Source: Steroidobacteraceae bacterium (GTDB lineage Bacteria > Pseudomonadota > Gammaproteobacteria > Steroidobacterales > Steroidobacteraceae). Taken from it: a stretch of 64,000 nt of DNA. The stretch covers positions 62,001-126,000 of the forward strand of contig JADGHX010000001.1 of the NCBI GenBank assembly GCA_019683695.1, written 5' to 3'. A program made the translations under genes and the position numbers. Numbering within the stretch: position 1 is the first letter of the stretch; every line of letters begins with the position of its first letter. Shown here piece after piece: positions 6,857 through 18,505 of the stretch. Below the pieces are notes generated by a model. That model saw nothing but the letters and a program-made list of their open reading frames with translations, was not told where the DNA came from and did no database searches.

Positions 6857-9800
6857 CTACTTCTCGATCGTGTAGACGAGATCGGCGCCGCGGGCCTGGC
6901 CGACTTCGGTCTTGACGGTCCAGCGGTCGCTCAGGGAGTAGCGCAGCTTCAGCGTGTTGATCTGCTCGGTGAAGCTGATTCCGTAGCTCACGTACAGCCG
7001 CGGCGAGAGGTACTTGCCGAGCACGAGCGAGGTCTCGTTCGCGAGGTTCGATTCGAGGCTCACATCCTCGATGCCCACGCGTGCACCGAGTTGCTGGGCG
7101 AGAATGGCGCTGCCCTGCGCGAGGGCCTCGTTGCCGGCCTGGTTGGGGTTGCTGCGGTTCTGCGCGGATTCCAGCGAACCGCCCGCGAGGATCAGCGACA
7201 CGATCTGCGATTGCGGAAGCGAAGGCTCGGAGAAAAACGAGAGCCGCGGCTGCAGGAGCGTGCCGCGCACGTTCACGCCGGCCTTCACGTCCGGGTATTC
7301 CTTCACCGCGCGAATATCCACGCCTGGGTTGTTCACGGGGCCGCCGCTGAAGACGAGGCGGCCGCGCTCGATGTCGAGCCGCCTTCCGTACGCGGTGTAC
7401 TTGCCATCCTGCACCGAGAGCTCGCCTGCGCCACGCGTCATGTCGTCGTTTCCTCCGCTGCGCAGCGTGATGGAGCCGGTGAGGCGCGCGGTGAGCCCGA
7501 GCGTATCGATGCTCACCTTGTCGCCGAGCGTGAGGGAGATTCCTGTGCTCACCTCGAAGCGCTTCGAGGGATCCGGCTCCTCCTGCCCCGCGACGATCTC
7601 GTCGGATGACGCACGCACCGCATTCGTGAGATCCGCCGGCGCGATGCGGGCGTACGGCACCTGCACGGCGCCCGTGACCTCGATGCGGCGGCCCTCGATG
7701 GTGAAGTCCAGGGCGGGCGAGGCGTCGATCTGTGCCTCGGGCACGTCCATGACGCGAAGGTTCTCGCCCTGCAGCCGGAACTTGCCGTAGGGCTTCGCAT
7801 CGCGCCACTCGAGGTGGCCGCCGGCGCTCACTGTACCGTCCCCCATGCGGGCGGAGCCCGTGAAATCGAGGCCGTTCTGCTGGAGCTGCGCTTCGAGCCG
7901 TGCGCCCCTCAGGGCGAGATTGACCTGATACAGATCCATCTCCGCATCGGACAGCTCCAGCTTGCCGTCGATGAGAGGCCTGCCCATCGTGCCGCTGACG
8001 GCCAGATCCGACACGAGTCTTCCCGCGAGCCGGTCGATGTCCGGCAGGTACAGCGCGATGAAACCCAGCTCCGCGGTTTCCGCATGCACCTCGCCAGTGA
8101 CTGGCATGTCTTGCCAGCGTGCGCTCGTGCGCTGGGCATTGAGGCGTGAGCGCACGGTGCCGACTTCACCCGCGTCCAGACTGACCGTGGCATTGATGGC
8201 GCTTGGTGAGGCATCCAGCGTCACGAGCCCCGTGCCCAGCGTGATGCGCTCCACGCGGCCACTCGCGAGCCGATGCGCTATGGCGGCATCGACGAGATCC
8301 GCGCGCACGGTGCCCTGAACCGGCTCCGCAGGGCCGCCGAACGCGCGCGCCATGACCGTGAGCCGGCCGCGATAGTTCACGGTCGGGCTGAGGCCGGACA
8401 TGAGCGTCCTCAACGGCAGGCCATTGGCATTGACGGTGGCGCTCCACCGGGCAGGGCTCCAGTCCGCATCCGCGCACACCCGCGCCGGCGCGCCATTCAG
8501 GCAGAACCAGTCGATGCGCATGCGTGCGTCCGAAAGCAGCACGTCCACCGGCGAATCGAGCTCCAGATGCAGCGATTCGCTGCCGTTGACGGTGAGCTTG
8601 CGCATCTGGCCGATCCACACGCCATGCGCAAAGACACCGGAGAGCTCCGAGTCCAGCGCAAGGTCCGGCGCTCTCGCCGTGATGTGCGCAACGTGATCGG
8701 CCGCTGCACCGTTCAACCCGATGGCCACCTCGTTCACCGTGCGCTTGCCCACCACGATGTTCTGAGCGCGGATATCCACGTCCGAGGGCTGTGCGCCGCT
8801 CGCGTCGAAGCGCACATCGGCCATGATGCTTTCGATGGCCACGCCGGCGTGCTGGATTCCCGAGCCGCGCAGGTCTGCGTCGATGATGGGATTGCGGGCC
8901 GTGCCTCGAAGCGTGCCCTGCGCGCGCAGGTTGCCGCGGCTATCGTTCGCGAGAACGCTCAGGTCGTCCGCGTCGATCGCGAACCGCAGATCCATCGTAT
9001 CGGCGACGCGACCATCCGCGGCGAGCTTTGTGCCCCCGAGCGTCAGGCGCAACTGAGAGAACTCCCACGCGCCGGCCGTTCGTGCGATCTGCCCACCTCC
9101 GCTTGCGGTTGTGCCGCGCAGGCGGCCGCGCAGATCGCGCACGCTCACCGCGAAATCCCCGTCACTGCCGAACCGGCTGCCGCCCGCCGTGAATGAAAAA
9201 TCCAGCTTGCCGGGAAGATCGCTCCGCAGGCTCTCGGGGTTCATGCCGGACACGTCGCCCGTGAGCGTCCAGCGCTGCTCGGGCGACCAGCCGACCTCTC
9301 CGGAGACATCGGCCTCTCCGTCGAACGCCTGGACATGGGCAGTGCTCACGAGGAACCGGTCGGTGGCGAGCTGACCTTCCATCTCCACCTGCATGGGCGG
9401 CAGAGGGCCGGGCGCCACCGTGCCGATGGCGCGCACGTTGAAGGGCCGAACGCCGCTCAACACGAATTCACCATGGGCGCTCTGCACAGCCACCGCGTCC
9501 CCGACCAGCGGCCAGCGGAAGTTGCTCCAGGTGCCGTGGAGATCGAGCTGCGGTCCATCGGGAACGATGCTGAGGGTTCCGCTGCCTTCAGCATGCGCGC
9601 CGGAGCCATGCGTGAGCTCGATGCGATCCGCCTTGAGCACCCGCTGGCTGTAGGAGCCTTCGAACACCGTCTGGAACGCGCCGGCCTTCAGCCCCTCCGG
9701 CGTGAGCGGCCCGCGCGCGGCGAAACCCGAGGCGTCGCCCCGAAGCGCAAGCTCACCCCAGATGCGCCCGAGCGCGCCGCCGCCACCCCAGGTCCGCAGA

Positions 9801-10582
9801 TCGAGGCTTTGAAGTTTCGCGTTTCCCGACCAGTGCCAGCCTCGCGTGAGGTCCTTCGCCTTGCCCGTGAACTCCGCCTGGAGCGGCGCGGTGAACTGCG
9901 CCGTGAGATCGAGCTGGTCGAGGTCGCCGCGGCCGGAAGCGGTGATGACCCATTGCGGCTGCCCCTCCCAGCGCAACAGCACGCGTGCATCTCCATCGAT
10001 CTCCATCGGGTCCGCGGCGTGCAGCGTCGCGTTTCCCGTGACCTGCATTGCGTTCTGCACGAAGCCGGCTTCGAAGAAGCGCAGCGTGCGATAACGCGCA
10101 ACGCCGGAGGTGCTCACGTCCGTGACATCGAAGCGGCGGCCGTTGGTGGCGATGAGGGTGCCCGCGTCGGCGCGTGCACGATCCACGCGGATGATGAGCC
10201 CCGGCGGCAGAAAGCGCGGCGTGTTCCTCGTGGCGGGTCGCTTGCGCCGGCGCACTTCGACGTACACGTTGCGCATGTGCACGTCGGACGCGTGGAGGGT
10301 TTGCCACAGGAGCGGGGCAAGCCGGAAATGACCCTCCACGCCCTCGAAGCGCAAGTGCACGCGCTCGTGCTCGGTTTCCAGCCGCTCGAGCGTGAAGCCG
10401 CCCGCCAGGGTGCCGCGTGCGCCGACGATCTCGAGCTGCGTGCGGCCGATGCGTTTCGGAATGTGGCGCACGATGAGCTGCAGGCCGGACTCGGTGTACG
10501 CCGCGTAGTACACCGCCACGGCGGGGATCGCGATGGCGATCGCGATCACGAGAGCGACGATGATGAGGACGCGCCGAGTCAT
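6857..10582 (-). CDS. tamB: Translocation and assembly module protein TamB
   Basis: Inner-membrane-anchored periplasm-spanning protein that partners TamA in outer-membrane protein or lipid transport. From ATG at 10582 (MTRRVLIIVALV) the product is 1241 residues. It has one N-terminal transmembrane anchor (about 4-25), a very long stretch of beta-rich AsmA/DUF490-like repeats, and a C-terminal TamB domain (about 900-1241) ending YGISFTEQINTLKLRYSLSDRW...DLVYTIEK. Length fits the family (about 1200-1300). An upstream in-frame start would add 31 residues before the anchor and overlap tamA. It starts 22 bp after the tamA stop, the usual tamA-tamB order. Confidence 0.93.
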   Translation of the reverse strand: MTRRVLIIVALVIAIAIAIPAVAVYYAAYTESGLQLIVRHIPKRIGRTQLEIVGARGTLAGGFTLERLETEHERVHLRFEGVEGHFRLAPLLWQTLHASDVHMRNVYVEVRRRKRPATRNTPRFLPPGLIIRVDRARADAGTLIATNGRRFDVTDVSTSGVARYRTLRFFEAGFVQNAMQVTGNATLHAADPMEIDGDARVLLRWEGQPQWVITASGRGDLDQLDLTAQFTAPLQAEFTGKAKDLTRGWHWSGNAKLQSLDLRTWGGGGALGRIWGELALRGDASGFAARGPLTPEGLKAGAFQTVFEGSYSQRVLKADRIELTHGSGAHAEGSGTLSIVPDGPQLDLHGTWSNFRWPLVGDAVAVQSAHGEFVLSGVRPFNVRAIGTVAPGPLPPMQVEMEGQLATDRFLVSTAHVQAFDGEADVSGEVGWSPEQRWTLTGDVSGMNPESLRSDLPGKLDFSFTAGGSRFGSDGDFAVSVRDLRGRLRGTTASGGGQIARTAGAWEFSQLRLTLGGTKLAADGRVADTMDLRFAIDADDLSVLANDSRGNLRAQGTLRGTARNPIIDADLRGSGIQHAGVAIESIMADVRFDASGAQPSDVDIRAQNIVVGKRTVNEVAIGLNGAAADHVAHITARAPDLALDSELSGVFAHGVWIGQMRKLTVNGSESLHLELDSPVDVLLSDARMRIDWFCLNGAPARVCADADWSPARWSATVNANGLPLRTLMSGLSPTVNYRGRLTVMARAFGGPAEPVQGTVRADLVDAAIAHRLASGRVERITLGTGLVTLDASPSAINATVSLDAGEVGTVRSRLNAQRTSARWQDMPVTGEVHAETAELGFIALYLPDIDRLAGRLVSDLAVSGTMGRPLIDGKLELSDAEMDLYQVNLALRGARLEAQLQQNGLDFTGSARMGDGTVSAGGHLEWRDAKPYGKFRLQGENLRVMDVPEAQIDASPALDFTIEGRRIEVTGAVQVPYARIAPADLTNAVRASSDEIVAGQEEPDPSKRFEVSTGISLTLGDKVSIDTLGLTARLTGSITLRSGGNDDMTRGAGELSVQDGKYTAYGRRLDIERGRLVFSGGPVNNPGVDIRAVKEYPDVKAGVNVRGTLLQPRLSFFSEPSLPQSQIVSLILAGGSLESAQNRSNPNQAGNEALAQGSAILAQQLGARVGIEDVSLESNLANETSLVLGKYLSPRLYVSYGISFTEQINTLKLRYSLSDRWTVKTEVGQARGADLVYTIEK

Positions 10583-10604
10583 CTGGATGGCATGCCCCGG
10601 CGCC

Positions 10605-12389
10605 TCACAGCTTCGGCGAGAAATTGATGTGCAGGCGCGGCCCGAGTCCCGATTCCGAGAGGGGCTGCGCCACATCGACGCCGAGCGTCACGACGGGCAG
10701 TCGCCAGCGGAAGCCGAGGCCCGCGGAGTATTCGAGCGGATCCCCGAACTTGTCGAAGGCGTTGCCGAAATCGAAGAACGTGGCCACGCCGAAGTTGCGC
10801 GGCAGATCGCGTACCACCTCGACCGTGCCGGTGAGCAGGTGCCTGCCGCCGACCCGGATGGTGCGTTCCGTGCCATCTGGGTTGGTTAGCACCTCGACCG
10901 GCGACAGCTCGTTGTAGCCGAACCCGCGGACGCTGCGATCGCCGCCTGCGAAGAAGCGCACCGTACCGGGAAGCTCGCTGAACTCCGCCACCAGACTCGC
11001 ACCGATCTCGCCGCGCAGGAGCAGATGCCAGTTTTGCGTGATGTCGAACACGCGCTCGGACTGGATATCGATCTGCAGGAAGTCCGAGTCCGACCCGAAC
11101 ACGTGATGCGAGCCCCGCAGCTCCGCATAGAGCGTGCGCGAGAACAGCGCCTCGCCGAGGTAGCCCTGCGGAATCGTCGCGACGCTGATGCCGGGAATCA
11201 ACAGAGTGTCCGTGCTGCTGCTGAGCTCGGAACGCGTGGTCGTGTTTGCGGCCGTGACGAAGTACACCCACTGCCAGCGCCCGGACACCTGCGTGATGCT
11301 CGGCTCGAAGCGGACATCTTCCGTATCGAGGTCCGCCAGCTCCTCCTGCGCGTACGTGGTCTCGAACGCCAGCTTCTCGAGCGCCGGATCGCCGATCGGC
11401 ACGATGTAGTGCGACTCGAGTGTCTTCTGCGGCTTCGAGGCGCGCAGCTCCACGTTGAAGCGGTGGCCGCTCGAATTGATGCGCCGGTCTTCCCATTGAA
11501 GCGTGCCGCGCACGCTCGTGTCCGTGCCGTAGCCGGCGCCGAACGAATAGCGGTGACGGCGGTTCGGGTCCGCCTCGATGCTGATGGGCACGATGTGTGC
11601 CTCGCGATCGGGATTGCCGGGCAGCACCTCCACCGTCGAGAAGTACTGGCTGTCGTCGAGCGCGAACTGCGTGCGAAGCAGCTCCGTCATGTCGAACGGC
11701 TCGTCCTGCTCATAGCGCATGTAGCGGCGCACAAGCGTATCGTCGATCACGTTCTGCTCGATGGTGGTGGGCCCGAACCGGTACCGCGAACCTGTCTCGA
11801 ACTCGAGAGTGGCCTGCGCGGTGTGCTGTTCCGGGTCCACGCGCAGCTCGCTCTTCAGCATGCGCGCATCCAGGTAGCCGTAGTTGGATGCGGTCCGTTG
11901 CAGGTCACCCTTGATCTTTTCGTATGCGGAGTGGCTCAGACGCTCGCCCGGATGCAGCGGCAGGTTGGACGTGATGCGCTGGAACAGCGGGTCGTCCGCC
12001 CCCGGGCCGGTCACGCGCACGTCCACGCGTTCCATGATGACGGGTTGTCCGGGGTCGATGTCGAGCGTGACGCGCCAGTTCCCATTGCCCAGGTCGCGCA
12101 GCTCCGTGCGCGTGCTCGGCGCGTAATAGCCGAACGGCTTGAGCGCGGCGGCGACCTCGCGCTCGACACGATTATGAAGGCGCTCGATCACATCCGGGCC
12201 CAGCTCCGTCTTGCGGTAACGGTCGAAGCTCAGATAAGCGAGCACGTTCGTGCGCAGCTCATCGTCCACACCCCGGATCTCGATCTCGACGTTCGCCCTT
12301 GCGGGCATCACGCCGAGCAGCAGGCACGCAGCAGCCAGCGTCGTACGGCGGAGCCGGAACGCTTCGAGGACTGATCTTCGCTGCGCCAT
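10605..12389 (-). CDS. tamA: Outer-membrane TamA (Omp85/BamA family)
   Basis: Omp85-family beta-barrel that works with TamB in the outer membrane. The 594-residue product from ATG at 12389 has a cleavable signal peptide (MAQRRSVLEAF... to VMPARA, about residue 32). Three POTRA-like modules follow (about 33-280), then a surface-antigen barrel with RFFAGGDRSVRGFGYNELSP near residue 490, the VRGF/RGY motif conserved in Omp85 loop 6. It ends in a C-terminal aromatic/basic strand (LHINFSPKL). The start is supported by an AGGG about 7 bp upstream; a frame reaching 12593 adds 68 residues lacking a signal sequence and is not used. Confidence 0.93.
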   Translation of the reverse strand: MAQRRSVLEAFRLRRTTLAAACLLLGVMPARANVEIEIRGVDDELRTNVLAYLSFDRYRKTELGPDVIERLHNRVEREVAAALKPFGYYAPSTRTELRDLGNGNWRVTLDIDPGQPVIMERVDVRVTGPGADDPLFQRITSNLPLHPGERLSHSAYEKIKGDLQRTASNYGYLDARMLKSELRVDPEQHTAQATLEFETGSRYRFGPTTIEQNVIDDTLVRRYMRYEQDEPFDMTELLRTQFALDDSQYFSTVEVLPGNPDREAHIVPISIEADPNRRHRYSFGAGYGTDTSVRGTLQWEDRRINSSGHRFNVELRASKPQKTLESHYIVPIGDPALEKLAFETTYAQEELADLDTEDVRFEPSITQVSGRWQWVYFVTAANTTTRSELSSSTDTLLIPGISVATIPQGYLGEALFSRTLYAELRGSHHVFGSDSDFLQIDIQSERVFDITQNWHLLLRGEIGASLVAEFSELPGTVRFFAGGDRSVRGFGYNELSPVEVLTNPDGTERTIRVGGRHLLTGTVEVVRDLPRNFGVATFFDFGNAFDKFGDPLEYSAGLGFRWRLPVVTLGVDVAQPLSESGLGPRLHINFSPKL

Positions 12390-12893
12390 CGCAACCCTGG
12401 TTCGTTGAAACAATCGCCCGCGGCCTTTCCGGGGCAACGCCTTCGCAGCCGCCGGGCCATACTCACTGCCTGATGCTCGGGGCCGACCTTTCCGGACATC
12501 GCCTTCCGGGCCGCTCGTCCGGCCCCGCACATCCCGCGCCGGGTGGCTGGTGCAAGACGGCCGGGCCGTGAGTCGGATGGGCAGCCAAGTCAAAGGAAAG
12601 CGATTCTAGAAGGAACAACGACGCCCCGCTCGAAGCTCTTTCTCAGAGCCGCATCGTGCGTAACGGTTCCGTTTGCGGCGCGCGCGCGTGCCCGAACGGA
12701 ATGTTGCGAATTCTGACGGCGATGCGAGCGACGGTGCGCTCACGCGGATGACCCGCCCCGGGTGAGCAGTCAGCGGGCGGGTGAGATCATCATGCGGTGA
12801 AGGAAGCTTCGATGCCTGCGCGGTGCTCGCGAGACCGCGGGCGGTGAAGACCTTGTCGCAGGGCACGCCGTGGAAGCGCATGCGCTTGCGGCG
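12390..12893. other. Intergenic region upstream of tamA
   Basis: About 500 bp between tamA and the NRDE gene (both minus strand). Short open frames here (for example 12606-12881 on the minus strand) have no domain, signal or ribosome site I can defend. There is a loose internal similarity around cctttccgg at about 12423 and 12488. The tamA promoter presumably lies here, but no -35/-10 pair is clear. Confidence 0.5.
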
Positions 12894-13670
12894 TCAGGGC
12901 CATTCACCTGCATTCAGGAAAAATTCAGTTTCGCCGGTGCGCTCACCGTTCGCATCGAAGCGCCGCTCGGCCATGATGGCCTGACCGGTTGGCTCGAGCA
13001 GCAGCACCGTCGAGGAACGCGTGCCGTACGTCGGATGCACGACAAACGGTGCAGACAAGATTCGCTCCCACTCTGGCGACACGCCGGGCATGGGCGGCCC
13101 GCCGGTCGCGGGCGTGCGGTCCGCGAGGAGGTTGAACAGCTCCTCCACCGGGTCGGCGGAGGGTCGGGCGAGCCACGCTTCGAACGCTTCGCGCGTGCGG
13201 CGCAGTTTCGGCCACGGTGAGTCGAGATATTCGTTGCTCAGGCCGTAGACGCCCGGCGGCAGCTGTCGCGCAAAGCGGTCGAGCCGGTTCGAGGCATACC
13301 AGAGCTGATCCGTGTCGCTGATCAGCAGGTTCATTCCCGAGTATCCCGGTGCGTCCGTCTCGAGCCGGGAGAGGAAAACCTCGGGCGGATCCTCCTGCGA
13401 CAGCCACGCGGGCACGAGCAGGCCGCGTGAAGGCGCCGAGCGGCGCGGCCGCTGCATCTCGCGAAAGTTCGTGACGACGCCGAAGCGGTGTTTGCGGTCG
13501 AGCCCCATCCAGGTGCCGCCGGCGCGCAGGTCCCGACCGGCGAGCAGGTCGTAAGGCGCGGGCCATTTCGAGAGCGGTGCCGTCGGCCGCTCGTGATACT
13601 CGTCGCGATTGGCCGCAACGATGAGACTGAATCGGGGGTGGCTGCGCCAGGCGAGTATCAGCAGGCACAT
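12894..13670 (-). CDS. NRDE (TANGO2-like) family protein
   Basis: Member of the NRDE/TANGO2 family, whose biochemical role is still unsettled (the eukaryotic members are linked to heme or lipid handling). The 258-residue product starts MCLLILAWRS with the conserved Cys2. It carries the family name motif NRDE at residues 21-24, then the LLAGRDLRAGGTWMGLD segment and VVTNFRE. Length matches the family. It starts 6 bp after the nudC stop, so the two are likely cotranscribed. No membrane segment or signal peptide is present, so a cytosolic location is inferred. Confidence 0.88.
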   Translation of the reverse strand: MCLLILAWRSHPRFSLIVAANRDEYHERPTAPLSKWPAPYDLLAGRDLRAGGTWMGLDRKHRFGVVTNFREMQRPRRSAPSRGLLVPAWLSQEDPPEVFLSRLETDAPGYSGMNLLISDTDQLWYASNRLDRFARQLPPGVYGLSNEYLDSPWPKLRRTREAFEAWLARPSADPVEELFNLLADRTPATGGPPMPGVSPEWERILSAPFVVHPTYGTRSSTVLLLEPTGQAIMAERRFDANGERTGETEFFLNAGEWP

Positions 13671-13676
13671 GGTGCG

Positions 13677-14633
13677 CTACCTTTCATCCGGCGGCAGGCC
13701 CAGCGCGGGGTTGGCGAGCCAGGTCGTGATGAGCCGGTACGAAATCGATTTCGAAGGCGGCAGAACGGGTGGCCCTTGCAGCAGTTCCTCGCGGCTGAAC
13801 CAGCGGGCATCCTCCAGCTCACCCGTTACGCGGACCGGCGCATTCGGCTCCGCGCTGGCATGAAACCCCACCATGAGAGACGACGGGAACGGCCACGGCT
13901 GCGAGGAGTGGTAGCACACATGCCGCACGCTCACTCCTGTTTCCTCGAGCACTTCGCGGGCAACGGCGTCCTCCAGACTCTCGCCGGGCTCGACGAAGCC
14001 CGCGATCGTCGAATACCGGCCCGGCGGCCACTCCGCCTGCCGGCCCAGCAACGCCCGCTCACCATCCGTGACGAGCACGATGATGGCCGGATCGATCCGC
14101 GGGAAGAAGTCGTTCCCGCACTGGGGACAGTGCATGACGTGACCCGCACGCTGGGGAACGAGCGGTGAGCCGCATACGCCGCAATAGCGATGCCGCGCGC
14201 GCCACACGGCCAGGGCGCGTGCATAAGCCAGCAACCCGCCTTCTTCCTGAGGCAGCGCATTCGAGAGCGGGCGCAGTTCCGAGAACCGGGCCCCCGGCAA
14301 CCACTCGATATCGGGAACGCGATCCGGATCCACGTCCACCAGCACCGTGCGCCAACCGCGGAACCAGCCCAGCAGCACGAGCTGGCGATCCGAGGCCTCG
14401 CGCACGAGTGTGTGCTCGTGCGTGACAAACGCGATGCGCGGCTCGGGCCCATCGAACACGAGCTGGGTGGTGCCGCGATTGAGGATGTAAAGCGTGGAAG
14501 GGTCCGCGCGCGCGGCCCGCGCCCAGTCCTCCGCGTCGCGTTGCTCCGCGCGGCGGTCCACATACGGGCCTGCGAAGAAGTTGGGTCGATGACGATCCGG
14601 GTCCATGCCCACACCGGGTTGCACCTCACCCAT
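13677..14633 (-). CDS. nudC: NAD(+) diphosphatase NudC (Nudix hydrolase)
   Basis: Hydrolyses NAD(H) to NMN(H) and AMP, and in E. coli removes NAD caps from RNA. The 318-residue product has an N-terminal domain (1-145), a zinc ribbon with C151/C154 and C169/C172, and the Nudix box beginning GFVEPGES (212-219) and ending REVLEETGV. The NudC signature SQPWPFP sits at 244-250. An alternative start at Met10 (14606) is possible. It heads a two-gene unit with the NRDE gene. About 200 bp upstream to the aldo/keto reductase stop holds no recognisable feature. Confidence 0.93.
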   Translation of the reverse strand: MGEVQPGVGMDPDRHRPNFFAGPYVDRRAEQRDAEDWARAARADPSTLYILNRGTTQLVFDGPEPRIAFVTHEHTLVREASDRQLVLLGWFRGWRTVLVDVDPDRVPDIEWLPGARFSELRPLSNALPQEEGGLLAYARALAVWRARHRYCGVCGSPLVPQRAGHVMHCPQCGNDFFPRIDPAIIVLVTDGERALLGRQAEWPPGRYSTIAGFVEPGESLEDAVAREVLEETGVSVRHVCYHSSQPWPFPSSLMVGFHASAEPNAPVRVTGELEDARWFSREELLQGPPVLPPSKSISYRLITTWLANPALGLPPDER

Positions 14634-14837: not shown

Positions 14838-15848
14838 TCAGCCGTTGAGCAGACGGAGCATGGCCTCGTTGTAGCGTCGGCCCGCCACGACGCCGGGCGG
14901 CGCGATCTGCTCGATGCGGTCGAGCTCCTGCGTCGTGAGCTCGATGTCCACGGACGCCGCGTTCTCTTCGAGGCGTTTGCTGCTGCTCGTGCCGGGAATC
15001 GGGATCACGTTCTGATGGCGAACGAGCAGCCACGCGAGCGCGAGTTGCGCCGGCGTGCAACGCTTCTCTGCCGCCAGCTCACGCAAGTGATCGGCGAGTG
15101 CGAGATTCTTCGCGAAGTTCTCGCCCTGGAATCGCGGATTGCCACGGCGCCAGTCGTTCGGCGCCAGATCCTCGGGCTTGCGGAAGCGCCCGGCGAGAAA
15201 GCCGCGGCCCAGCGGACTGTAGGCCACGAGCGCGATGCCCAGCTCATCGAGCACCGGCAGCAGCTCGTTCTCGGGCTCCCGGGTGAACAAGGAGTATTCG
15301 GTCTGGATGGCCGTCAACGGATGCACCTTGTGTGCGCGTCGGACCGTGTCCGGCGAGGGTTCGGACAAACCGATGTGCCGGACCTTTCCCTGCTTCACGA
15401 GATCCGCCATCGCGCCGACGGTCTCTTCGATCGGCGTCTTCGGATCCACTCTGTGGAGGTAATACAAGTCGATGTAATCGACGCCGAGTCGTGCGAGCGA
15501 CGCATCGCAGGCTTGCCGCACATACCGCGGGCTGCCGTCGATCATGTCGTCGGGCGCTTCGGCTCGCGCATTGGCGCTCACGCCCGTCTTGAACCCGAAC
15601 TTCGTCGCGAGCACCGCCTGTTCGCGACGCCCCTTGAGTGCCTTGCCGACCTGACGCTCCGAGTCGCCATAGATGTCGGCGGTGTCGAGCAGCGTGATGC
15701 CGAGGTCCAGTGCGCGATGAATGAGCGCTACGGCTTCGTCGTCGTTCGCCACACTGCTCGAGTAGGTATCGGCGATCCCGATGCTCATGCAACCGAGACC
15801 CAACGCGGAAACGCGCGGCCCTTGACGGCCCAGCTTGCGGTATTTCAC
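14838..15848 (-). CDS. Aldo/keto reductase
   Basis: NADPH-dependent oxidoreductase of the AKR superfamily (YajO/IolS-like branch; substrate unknown). I place the start at GTG 15848 (reading [10 protein letters not shown]), because a GGAGG ribosome site ends 5 bp upstream. The nearest in-frame ATGs add over 25 residues of non-homologous sequence. The 336-residue protein shows the catalytic tetrad Asp55 and Tyr60 ([12 protein letters not shown]), Lys83 (ATKFG) and His132 (YLHRVDP). The cofactor-binding tail includes [15 protein letters not shown]. It stands alone, with long non-coding DNA upstream. Confidence 0.9.
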
Positions 15849-16572
15849 AGACACCTCCGTGAGTGATGGATGCTCGCCGCCGCCAGGGTGGCGAGAAGGC
15901 GAATGTGCCAGCAACGCGGATACCTTTGGGCACATGGCCCTCTCCTGGGCGCGCAACCCTCTCTCATTGGTGATAACGCAGAGCGGCCTTTCGATGGAGG
16001 TGTCGCATGCGCGCAGGGTTCGCGCTAACGGCTGCATTCTGCGATCGGCGTAGCAACCGGACGCGGGCTAGGGCGCGAGCACTGGAGGCTCCATAGTGTT
16101 GTGAATCGGCTGCGGCCCGCACGAGGCGACACGCAATCACCTTCGGCGTTGCAACGTGCGCTGGCGCGTCGCGCCGGCGTGACGAACGGCTTCCTCTGGG
16201 CAGCGCCTTGCGAATGCCCAGCAGCGTCCGGCCAACAAAAAAGCCACTGCTGAACGCGAGGGTCTTTTGACTCACGGCCGCACGCATTCCCGATTCGCCC
16301 TTCCCGCGCAGCGGCACTTGCGGCGGAAGCGCGGACTCCGAATAAGTTCAAACAAGCGTGCTCGGCGGGCCGCCGCCCAATGCCTTCCGCGTGCCGACGC
16401 GCGATCGTGCCAGCACGTCCCCGCCGCTTCCCTGTGCACGCGCAGATGACGACCAACACGAAGTCGCCGCCGGGAACGGATACGGCGCAGCCGTATGCGA
16501 TCTCCCGATCGAGAGGCACGGGAGCGCGACTATGGCGCTCGTCGTGCCTCGCCAGCACCTGGGTGTGCCACG
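15849..16572. other. Non-coding stretch between the aldo/keto reductase and the FlhC-like gene
   Basis: About 720 bp in which several overlapping open frames on both strands give only Arg/Ala/Pro-rich sequence with no motif and no convincing ribosome site. No tRNA, repeat or terminator was recognised. The first ~100 bp should hold the reductase promoter. Confidence 0.5.
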
Positions 16573-17127
16573 TCAGGCGCGCGGATCCTGGAGCCCGGCG
16601 CAGCGAATGCAGCGGACGTCGCGAACGTCCAGCTTGTCCACCACGACGAGGCCTTCGCAGACGCTGCAGTCGCCGAGCCGGAGCTCCTCGCCTCGGGCGA
16701 GCTCGTTCACGAGCAGCACGGCGTGTTCAAACGTGATGTGCGCGCGGGGTACGAACATGAGAAACGCTTCGAACGCCTGACACAGCCGCTCGCCGCGCGC
16801 GACGCCCGGCACCGGGTGGTCGTGATCCACGACCACGTTGCTCGGAACCACGCCCAGCAGCGAGAACAGGCTCGCGAGCACAGACGCTTCCTGCTGAACG
16901 CGCGGACTCCGAACGAAGAAGCTCGCCTGACCCGGTGACTTGCCCCGATGACGGGCCACCTGCCCCGGCGCGCGGGTGAGATAGGAGCGATAGAGCTTGC
17001 GAATGCGGTCATCCGTGAGCCCCGTCCACTTGCGGATGGTGTGCGTGCGCGCCTCATGGCGCATGAAGCGCAAGGCGAGGTCGAGACGCAGGCGGTCCCG
17101 GGTATACCGGTCGTCGGAAATACGCAT
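16573..17127 (-). CDS. FlhC-like transcriptional regulator (orphan, non-flagellar context)
   Basis: The 184-residue product aligns by eye to FlhC, the zinc-containing half of the flagellar master activator. RLDLALRFMRHEAR (14-27) corresponds to the FlhC N-terminal helix. LTDDRIRKLYRSY (37-49) matches the FlhC segment around LSRGRLIKLYKEL. The C-terminal half carries C154-x2-C157 and C173-x2-C176, spaced like the FlhC zinc site (x15 here, x16 in E. coli). Start ATG at 17127 has GGAGG about 11 bp upstream. No flagellar, chemotaxis or canonical flhD gene occurs in this window. The gene is divergent from the FlhD-like gene at 17312. Family membership is fairly secure; its targets are unknown. Confidence 0.72.
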   Translation of the reverse strand: MRISDDRYTRDRLRLDLALRFMRHEARTHTIRKWTGLTDDRIRKLYRSYLTRAPGQVARHRGKSPGQASFFVRSPRVQQEASVLASLFSLLGVVPSNVVVDHDHPVPGVARGERLCQAFEAFLMFVPRAHITFEHAVLLVNELARGEELRLGDCSVCEGLVVVDKLDVRDVRCIRCAGLQDPRA

Positions 17128-17213
17128 GCCGAAAGAGCCTCCCTGTGGCTGGATGGGTCATCCCGTGGGCGCACTAGATAAAAGATGTCGCGCCAAACAG
17201 CCAGTCCCGAATT

Positions 17214-17263
17214 GGTCAAAAATTCCCAAATTCAGGGCATGCAATTTCGGGCCTATTTTTGCC
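17214..17263. promoter_or_regulatory. AT-rich imperfect dyad between the divergent FlhC-like and FlhD-like genes
   Basis: An AT-rich island in an otherwise GC-rich region, with approximate symmetry around gcatgc (17237-17242). The outer arms are ggtcaaaaat (17214-17223) and tatttttgcc (17254-17263); the inner arms are aaatt and aattt. It lies about 50 bp before the FlhD-like start and 87 bp before the FlhC-like start. A shared operator or UP-type element is inferred; no protein is assigned. Confidence 0.4.
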
Positions 17264-17311
17264 ACCATTGCCGCGCCCGAGGAAACAACAACACCATCAG
17301 GAGATCTGGCG

Positions 17312-18022
17312 ATGTCCATGCAATGGCCGATCGGCACCGGGGACGATCCTGTCGGCACCGAGCCGCCCGATATCAGCCGGGGGGAGCTGGATCAGGAGCG
17401 GCCGTGGGAAGCGCACAGCTGGCTGCGTGCGGAAACACTCGCGCATCTGGCCGAATACAACGAGGAGTGCCTGAACATGCTCGCGCTCCAGTATTCGGCG
17501 ACTCCGGTGAGCCAGATGCCGCCCCTCGTGCGCGAAGTGGGTCCGCTCCTGCGCATGATGGATGCGGATGCGCGTCACCGCGCGGCGGCGTGCCCGTTTC
17601 TGCTGTTCGATGCCGGCTTTGCCGACCAGCAACGCTGGACATGGGTGTCCGGCAACTACGTGCAGGATCTCGCACGCCCCACCGCACCTCCGTATTTCAC
17701 CGTGCAGCAAACGCGCTCCGTGCTGCTCGCCATCTTCACCTACGCGTGGCATCTCGCGCGCAGCCAGACTGCAGCGGCGCGTCTCCTGCTTGGCATGACG
17801 CCCCATTGCTCGCGCCTCATTGCCGTGTGCACGGTTCGCCAGATTCACGAGCTGGCCGAGGCGCATCCGGAATGGCTCGTGCCGCGCTGGCAGACACGCA
17901 CCCAGTTCTGGCGCGAGCTTCTCATCAGCGCGATGAAAGGGGACGCGGCCGCGATGGAGCAGGCGCGCCTCCGCGGCCTGCAGATCATGGCCGCTGAGAA
18001 TCGTGCGCGGAGTCGCACGTAG
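17312..18022 (+). CDS. FlhD-like protein with N-terminal extension, divergent from the FlhC-like gene
   Basis: A 236-residue protein from ATG at 17312, preceded by AGGAG about 8 bp upstream; a longer frame from 16997 lacks such a site. The C-terminal part (about 138-205) resembles E. coli FlhD by eye: LLLGMTPHCSRLIAVCTVR followed by QIHELAEAH corresponds to FlhD RLGINEEMATTLAALTLPQ followed by MVKLAET. FlhD is about 115 residues, so this is twice as long. The first half (about 75-110) has a weakly similar pattern, so an internal duplication of the FlhD fold is possible. No catalytic motif or membrane segment is seen. With its divergent FlhC-like neighbour it could form a hetero-oligomeric regulator (inference). 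Confidence 0.6.
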   Translation: MSMQWPIGTGDDPVGTEPPDISRGELDQERPWEAHSWLRAETLAHLAEYNEECLNMLALQYSATPVSQMPPLVREVGPLLRMMDADARHRAAACPFLLFDAGFADQQRWTWVSGNYVQDLARPTAPPYFTVQQTRSVLLAIFTYAWHLARSQTAAARLLLGMTPHCSRLIAVCTVRQIHELAEAHPEWLVPRWQTRTQFWRELLISAMKGDAAAMEQARLRGLQIMAAENRARSRT

Positions 18023-18187: not shown

Positions 18188-18505
18188 ATGAAACTCAAGG
18201 TACGCCTCACAAAACGCGTAAAGACCCTGCGCAAGCGCCAAGGCAACCAGTGCTGCTGGTGTGGCCAGCCCATGCAGCGCACGGATCCGCAAGCCTGGGA
18301 CTACGAGACGCTCGAGCACCTCACGCCGCTGTCCAAAGGGGGCTCGCACCACATCTCGAACCTCGCGCTCGCGCATCGAAAATGCAATCAGGCGCGCGGA
18401 AGCGAAGATCGGCAGCCGCGGTATGCCGTCCGCACAGGCTCACGCGCCCCCGCGGAGGGCGCTGTGCCGGAGCCTTCGCCTGCTTCAGCGTGCGCGGCTA
18501 TTTGA
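18188..18505 (+). CDS. Small HNH endonuclease domain protein
   Basis: A 105-residue protein. Residues 21-26 (QCCWCG) give the first zinc-binding CxxC. ETLEHLTPLSKGG supplies the Glu-His pair of the HNH core, and NLALAHRKCNQARG supplies the conserved Asn, His and final Cys. This matches stand-alone HNH nucleases found in many bacteria, whose role is mostly unknown. Its last 8 bp overlap the end of the convergent pyruvate carboxylase gene. The Ala/Pro-rich C-terminal tail (75-105) lacks conservation and may simply be read-through to the next stop. No intron or intein sits nearby, so homing is not suggested. Confidence 0.8.
   Translation: MKLKVRLTKRVKTLRKRQGNQCCWCGQPMQRTDPQAWDYETLEHLTPLSKGGSHHISNLALAHRKCNQARGSEDRQPRYAVRTGSRAPAEGAVPEPSPASACAAI

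Follow-up and report, generated by a model that had tools for sequence, protein, structure and literature searches.

A divergent chromosomal FlhC-like/FlhD-like gene pair with a probable double-FlhD subunit, found in relatives with and without flagellin

FlhDC is a textbook master regulator, known to be used for flagella and, on mobile elements, for conjugation. Its FlhD subunit is usually a single domain of about 105-120 aa. According to PMC3510510, the four FlhD chains of E. coli FlhD4C2 occupy unlike positions, two internal and two peripheral, and DNA is reported to wrap around FlhC and not around FlhD. In the PDB copy of this complex one FlhD chain comprises 104 residues (2avu_B) and another 76 (2avu_A). 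FlhDC relatives redeployed outside flagella are already known: AcaCD of IncC plasmids and SetCD of SXT/R391 ICEs are used for conjugation, and PMC4605294 states that their DNA motifs are unrelated to each other and to the flagellar motif, the AcaCD site GCCCTAAAAGGGC being an inverted repeat around an A-rich centre. In ICEclc (PMC7423338), the FlhC-like protein BisC acts with BisD, a ParB-domain protein without a detected FlhD domain.

We analysed a window of 64 kb, bases 62001-126000 of contig 281 in a 5.18 Mb assembly (312 contigs, 97.65% complete), which carries two divergent genes that we call C and D (Table 1). As in FlhDC of E. coli, Salmonella and Cupriavidus necator (2avu, 8j56), the C model has the FlhC fold and the protein carries a four-cysteine motif, residues 129-236 of the D model have the FlhD fold, and the two genes occur together. 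Unlike in FlhDC, D has double length with a second FlhD-like half, the genes are divergent and not in tandem, their occurrence is independent of flagellin, a palindrome is conserved in their own promoter region, and nudC is usually found after C. Since neither the tandem order nor the single-domain FlhD is found here, we do not place C/D among the flagellar master regulators. The pair would share with AcaCD, SetCD and the FlhDC of SGI1 the status of an FlhDC-family regulator outside flagella, but those lie on mobile elements and drive conjugation or excision, whereas C/D is chromosomal and widespread in an order. Its palindrome is, like the AcaCD site, an inverted repeat with an A-rich centre, although the motif itself differs. 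BisDC of ICEclc likewise combines an FlhC-like protein with a second subunit outside flagella, but that subunit is of ParB type, the system is ICE-borne and the bis genes are consecutive. Finally, in short FlhD/FlhC-like pairs of other Gammaproteobacteria (L145, L147-L149, L152-L154) the FlhD-like gene also adjoins an FlhC-like gene (weak in L154), but D is there a single domain of about 100 aa and both genes are on the same strand. The short FlhD-like proteins of all these loci carry a WWW stretch; L145, L153 and L154 all belong to one genome, G392, which has three FlhD-like copies.

Two samples were used to follow the pair. The first consisted of 148 related genomes from 48 genera and 16 families (families tallied by hand from the table), with at least 150 C places among the matches listed. 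The second consisted of 80 named loci, those whose C relatives are nearest (best 80 of 151; L061-L140), all of them MAGs labelled Gammaproteobacteria, Proteobacteria, Pseudomonadota or Steroidobacteraceae, with one Nevskiaceae. These labels suggest a Steroidobacteraceae-like host (Gammaproteobacteria, Steroidobacterales), and the order in which the pair is widespread would be the Steroidobacterales.

Table 1. Coordinates of the C/D pair, its parts and its neighbours within the window
Feature	Position	Strand	Basis
Gene C, FlhC-like subunit, 184 aa	16573..17127	-	ORF; FlhC by profile and fold; relatives in 131/148 genomes
Putative zinc-site motif CxxC-x15-CxxC of C, residues 154-176	16600..16668	-	four Cys invariant; aligned with FlhC CxxC pairs
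N-terminal helical, DNA-binding-like part of C, residues 4-58	16954..17118	-	weak structural rows: TrpR Z 7.1, DeoR DNA-binding domain Z 4.7
Candidate operator GAATTGG-N10-CCAAATT	17209..17232 (core pattern 17211-17230)	.	unique in window; conserved place in relatives
Gene D, double-FlhD-like subunit, 236 aa	17312..18022	+	ORF, AGGAG upstream; profile; fold
Divergent FlhD-like N-terminal half of D (residues 36-128), lacking the C-terminal arm	17417..17695	+	profile A3; hhalign
C-terminal half of D (residues 129-236), armed FlhD domain	17696..18019	+	2avu_B 5-106, Z 7.3; profile A4, E 1e-6
Aldo/keto reductase gene	14838-16037	-	in the window, separates C from nudC
nudC-like NADH pyrophosphatase	13677..14633	-	Pfam NUDIX and Zn_ribbon_NUD; usual next gene after C in relatives
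TANGO2-family gene	12894..13670	-	Pfam; homologue in 42/80 named loci
tamA-like Omp85/POTRA gene	10605..12593	-	Pfam; homologue in 53/80 named loci
tamB-like gene	6857..10675	-	Pfam; homologue in 50/80 named loci

Searches with the single proteins against Pfam and NCBIfam were too weak to decide on the nature of C and D, and it was the family profiles that settled the relationship. Alone, C matched the Pfam FlhC model (PF05280) at E 0.075 and 13.2 bits, below the cut-off of 27; 30 of the 32 aligned C members matched this model at E up to 1, the best at 3.2e-6. When the profile of these 32 sequences was compared with the PDB, FlhC chains came out on top (8j56_C, 3.3e-7; 2avu_E, 3.1e-5), the next chain being at 0.21. 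The AlphaFold model of C (pLDDT 87.3, pTM 0.83) retrieved FlhC in Foldseek with E-values of 2.6e-6 to 1.3e-5, and structural alignment of this predicted model identified the FlhC fold, with Z 16.7 for 8j56_C (150 aligned) and 16.0 for 2avu_E (147 aligned), followed by an entry at Z 7.1. A sequence-only reading of this DNA had called the minus-strand protein FlhC-like with a CxxC-x15-CxxC pattern, and profile and fold agree with it, as does the invariance of C154, C157, C173 and C176 in 32 of 32 aligned sequences. By profile, predicted fold and cysteine motif, C is FlhC-like. The motif, a putative zinc site, coincides in the alignment with the FlhC cysteines, and residues ~4-58 may contact DNA.

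For D, the single sequence gave no match in Pfam. The Pfam FlhD model (PF05247) was matched by 13 of 35 D sequences at E up to 1 (best 5.7e-7), the D of the window not being among them. The profile of these 35 sequences found FlhD in the PDB (8j56_A, 3.3e-6), aligned through the C-terminal half. In the AlphaFold model (pLDDT 88.2, pTM 0.81) this half superposed on 2avu_B over 102 residues with an rmsd of 2.9 (Table 1), that is, with the FlhD fold over the whole FlhD length; the five best rows of this alignment were all FlhD entries, followed by Z 2.9. Foldseek gave poor E-values, with FlhD best at 0.61 and rank 4. We also took 73 non-redundant D proteins and built a separate alignment for each half. 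The resulting C-half profile (A4) alone retrieved FlhD from the PDB (Table 1), its hhalign probability being 94% against 13 FlhD-like proteins and 24% against four FlhDs (L141-L144), and the profile of the 13 FlhD-like proteins matched D, in this half, in 78 of 83 single sequences. On profile and modelled fold, the C-terminal half of D is FlhD-related; the alignment by eye that first suggested it is thus backed by a profile search that relates the 236-aa protein to FlhD.

Both genes travel together. C was present in 131 of the 148 genomes, in 42/48 genera and 13/16 families. D was found in 105 genomes by single sequence and in 129 by the C-half profile, 130 in union. In all, 130 genomes have both genes, one has C alone (G107), none has D alone and 17 have neither; the co-occurrence that the sequence-only reading had proposed to check is therefore found in 130 of the 131 relatives having C. 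The start codons are 184 bp apart in the window, matching the estimate of about 180 bp, and the survey of relatives showed this divergence to be conserved: among the matches listed, 111 of 119 D places from the single-sequence search share a contig with a C place from which they diverge, and do not show the flhD-flhC tandem order, with gaps between matched segments of 127-568 bp (median 223). The remaining D places are on the same strand (2), on a contig without C (5) or far from C (1). The exceptional same-strand arrangements are at G003:C7:677681-678928 and G043:C4:669728-670957. In the named loci D was found in 77/80 and faced away from C in 76 of those 77. Of 14 FlhD loci fetched from outside the order, 13 have an adjacent FlhC match in the same orientation as FlhD (weak in L154; L150 has none). 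A class-wide search with the C profile gave matches in 4/274 genomes (three of the order and G415), a number that is no proof of restriction to the order because this first pass appears to miss FlhC genes detected by a local profile search; the class-wide FlhD search gave matches in 12/274.

The surroundings of C are conserved as well. Of 73 eligible named loci, 59 have a nudC-like gene as the next one after C in the same orientation. The gap was taken to end at the first start codon in frame beyond the stop of C and so is a lower bound; it is 7-53 bp in 48 of the 59. Together with the FlhD-like extra half of D and the conserved palindrome, this gene order goes beyond what the first reading contained. 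An argR homologue is also common after C (39/80 named loci). In the window, the aldo/keto reductase gene and about 535 bp separate C from nudC, unlike in most eligible relatives. On the other side, 37 named loci have, downstream of D and in its orientation, an ORF that by eye resembles an ABC-transporter ATPase; 65 loci have more than 2 kb of sequence there. At this place, just downstream of D, the window has a gene for an HNH-endonuclease-like protein of 105 aa (18188-18505, plus strand).

The regions between C and D, when read, revealed AATTTGG-N10-CCAAATT, a palindrome with an A-rich centre. In a scan allowing spacers of 6 to 16, a score of at least 12/14 was reached in 48 of 83 distinct intergenic sequences and in 0/83 shuffled ones; the 10-base spacer was best in 40/83, and the palindrome of the window scored 12/14. 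With up to one mismatch allowed, the window contains a single match to the pattern WTTGGNNNAAANNNNCCAAW (0.04 expected), at the core position given in Table 1. A scan for sigma-70 promoters and terminators between 17100 and 17330 found none. In the 80 named loci (1.27 Mb) the exact pattern had 54 matches in 45 loci, and its reversed control had 0. All but one of them (53) fall 8-90 bp ahead of the C match; the exception, in L072, is 1354 bp before it, beside D. The matches in L103 and L116 were flagged as outside the D-C limits, yet they precede the C match by 30 and 65 bp; we take the flag to be due to the overlong D ORFs called there. Two copies of the pattern 34-36 bp apart occupy the D-C gap in nine loci (L061, L070, L078, L080, L087, L090, L101, L104, L114), and a wider-spaced AATTTGACARAAATTAATCACAAAGT-like element replaces the usual palindrome in 12/83 regions (L124, L125, L127, L128, L130-L132, L134-L137, L140).

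Elsewhere the pattern is scarce. The own genome has one exact core-pattern match, the C/D site, and at one mismatch one further place, on contig C221 and reported twice with overlap. By eye, the ORF whose start this place overlaps looks antitoxin-like, and we regard the match as chance. Across the 148 genomes there were 48 core-pattern matches in 42 genomes, the reversed control giving 13 (summed from the table). While 27 of the 48, in 25/148 genomes, are at the C start, 21 are not near it; one of these (G106:C261) is beside the D of that genome on a split contig, which leaves 20 off-locus matches, 9 of them in C-less genomes and 11 in genomes that have C. A BLASTP comparison at 1e-5 of seven of these 11 places and the C221 place found no common gene. 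With almost no further strong sites, the regulon would seem to be small, as far as sequence matches can tell, since weaker sites would escape. One could argue that the palindrome belongs to another regulator and that the C/D pair acts elsewhere on degenerate sites, as FlhDC-type sites often are, all the more as the link between protein and site is one that we infer. But the palindrome tracks the divergent C/D promoter region and elsewhere stays near the control level, with the 20 off-locus matches against 13 reversed ones in 148 genomes, and we consider it unlikely that it serves a different regulator. C/D itself remains the candidate that we favour for binding it.

We then considered the N-terminal half of D. 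With 236 aa against 111-116 aa for FlhD chains in the PDB, D does not have the length of a single-domain FlhD, and the earlier remark that it is about twice as long holds. The profile of this half (A3), searched against 177,635 distinct PDB sequences, had FlhD as its three best matches (8j56_A, 7e-4; 5hxg_B, 0.058; 1g8e_A, 0.21), followed by ribosomal L29 at 0.26; the first alone is significant by itself, and the FlhD matches span most of the FlhD core, leaving out the C-terminal arm. In hhalign, the 73-sequence profile of the half against the 13 FlhD-like proteins gave E 2.2e-4, score 27.9 and a probability of 45%, with a shuffle maximum of 12.5 and 0/60 column shuffles as good; built from 35 sequences, it gave E 2.1e-4 and 46%, with 0/100 shuffles as good. 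Against the four most canonical FlhDs (L141-L144) the score was 26.1 (probability 32%), and against six short FlhD-like proteins 15.7 (1.6%; shuffle maximum 14.1). The helices predicted for this half (H40-63, H71-82, H85-92, followed by E99-100) lie at the places that the profile alignment assigns to FlhD helices.

Since the N-terminal half searched alone also retrieves FlhD first, D probably consists of two fused FlhD domains, the N-terminal one without the arm and the C-terminal one complete; on the sequence profiles we would put good odds on this. The half could instead be an unrelated helical sensor domain feeding a signal to an ordinary FlhD. Such a reading would fit the hhalign probabilities (45% or less, apart from the 46% just given) and the match between the two halves of D, which is marginal with 73 sequences (score 15.04 against a shuffle maximum of 14.98) and absent with 35 (57/100 shuffles as good). 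It would fit too that the profile of FlhD-like proteins matches the N-terminal half in 1/83 single D sequences, and that its mean column identity is lower, 35% against 52% in the C-terminal half. Against a sensor domain stand an all-PDB search that ranks three FlhD entries first, the best of them alone significant, and a profile comparison that outscores all 60 shuffles; it seems to us a rather unlikely origin for this half. The double FlhD is the form of D that we favour.

The occurrence of the C/D pair is not tied to flagellin. Flagellin matches were found in 73 of the 148 related genomes; 67 of the 73 have C, as do 64 of the 75 flagellin-negative genomes (Fisher p 0.30, no association); conversely, 6 of the 17 genomes without C have flagellin. 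Because the pair is kept with or without flagellin matches, it probably controls something other than swimming. A contrary view is that C/D is the flagellar master regulator of the order, merely retained in lineages that lost flagella. Its nearest solved relatives are indeed flagellar FlhDC, and the own genome has four flagellin matches (among the matches listed, three are on contigs 167 and 239) and no match to PF05280 (FlhC, E up to 1) or PF05247 (FlhD, E up to 10); as these searches miss even the C/D pair, the models are too insensitive to prove the absence of a canonical FlhDC. A search for FleQ, as an alternative flagellar regulator, gave many matches in open frames of ~210 aa, read as response-regulator-like, and the evidence for FleQ in the own genome is a single match below the cut-off. 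On the other hand, the presence of C in flagellin-negative genomes and of flagellin in C-less ones speaks against a flagellar role, as do the usual neighbours, which are nudC and tamAB and not motility genes, and an own genome without any other operator-like site at ≤1 mismatch save one place, weaker sites being liable to escape. We therefore regard a flagellar master regulator as improbable.

These data also qualify two claims of the sequence-only reading. That no motility genes are nearby stands for the identified neighbours, the part of the 64 kb that was covered, and since the flagellins of the own genome are on other contigs (C167 and C239 for the three listed), "without flagellar genes" holds locally only. 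The idea of redeployment outside motility gains from the 64 of 75 flagellin-negative relatives with C; the genome itself is not flagellin-free, though, and such redeployment of FlhDC relatives was known before. Although FlhDC relatives govern the transfer of IncC plasmids and SXT elements, it is most improbable that C/D represents an AcaCD/SetCD-type activator domesticated from a mobile element, given that C has no match in 72,556 plasmid records, that its chromosomal neighbours and gene order are stable, and that it is spread over 42/48 genera.

Computation shows homology and fold, an FlhD signal in each half of D, the co-occurrence and divergence of the genes, the conserved palindrome and the gene order, and the whole is best explained, with a probability that we put at roughly two in three (0.66), if C/D is a flagellum-independent, self-regulating heteromeric regulator of the FlhDC superfamily, with a double-FlhD D subunit and perhaps a D2C2 assembly, that acts through the palindrome on its own divergent promoters and a C-nudC operon. 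C and D would then be the two subunits of a chromosomal transcription factor. An arm-less and an armed FlhD in one D chain may occupy one internal and one peripheral FlhD place, which makes it possible that two D and two C chains rebuild the FlhD4C2 ring as D2C2. Zinc site and DNA contact would both come from C. Between the genes, the complex would bind AATTTGG-N10-CCAAATT and regulate, with a sign and targets that are conjectural, both divergent units, D on one side and C with its usual downstream nudC (and TANGO2, tamA and tamB) on the other. Some observations weigh against this reading: besides the low probabilities for the N-terminal half of D, the poor Foldseek E-values and the Pfam score of C, the exact core is present in 45 of 80 named loci and, at the locus, in 25 of 148 genomes, and in the window the aldo/keto reductase gene intervenes between C and nudC. 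A bolder version, to which we give somewhat less than even odds, would have most of the order run a flagellum-independent FlhDC whose FlhD is a single-chain pseudo-dimer fixing the internal and peripheral positions as D2C2, and which is nearly single-target, acting on its own divergent promoters and on a nudC-TANGO2-tamAB operon.

A literature search, with most subscription journals outside its coverage, turned up neither the C/D pair nor any duplicated or fused FlhD. Apparently new are the probable double FlhD, the divergent arrangement conserved together with a palindrome of its own, and the broad distribution on chromosomes irrespective of flagellin. That a chromosomal relative is kept by most of the order, whether or not flagellin is found, suggests that the FlhDC architecture has one more use. 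If real, the fused FlhD would offer a natural experiment on the need of FlhD4C2 for four non-equivalent FlhD copies, and the conserved palindrome opens an immediate route to binding and target experiments.
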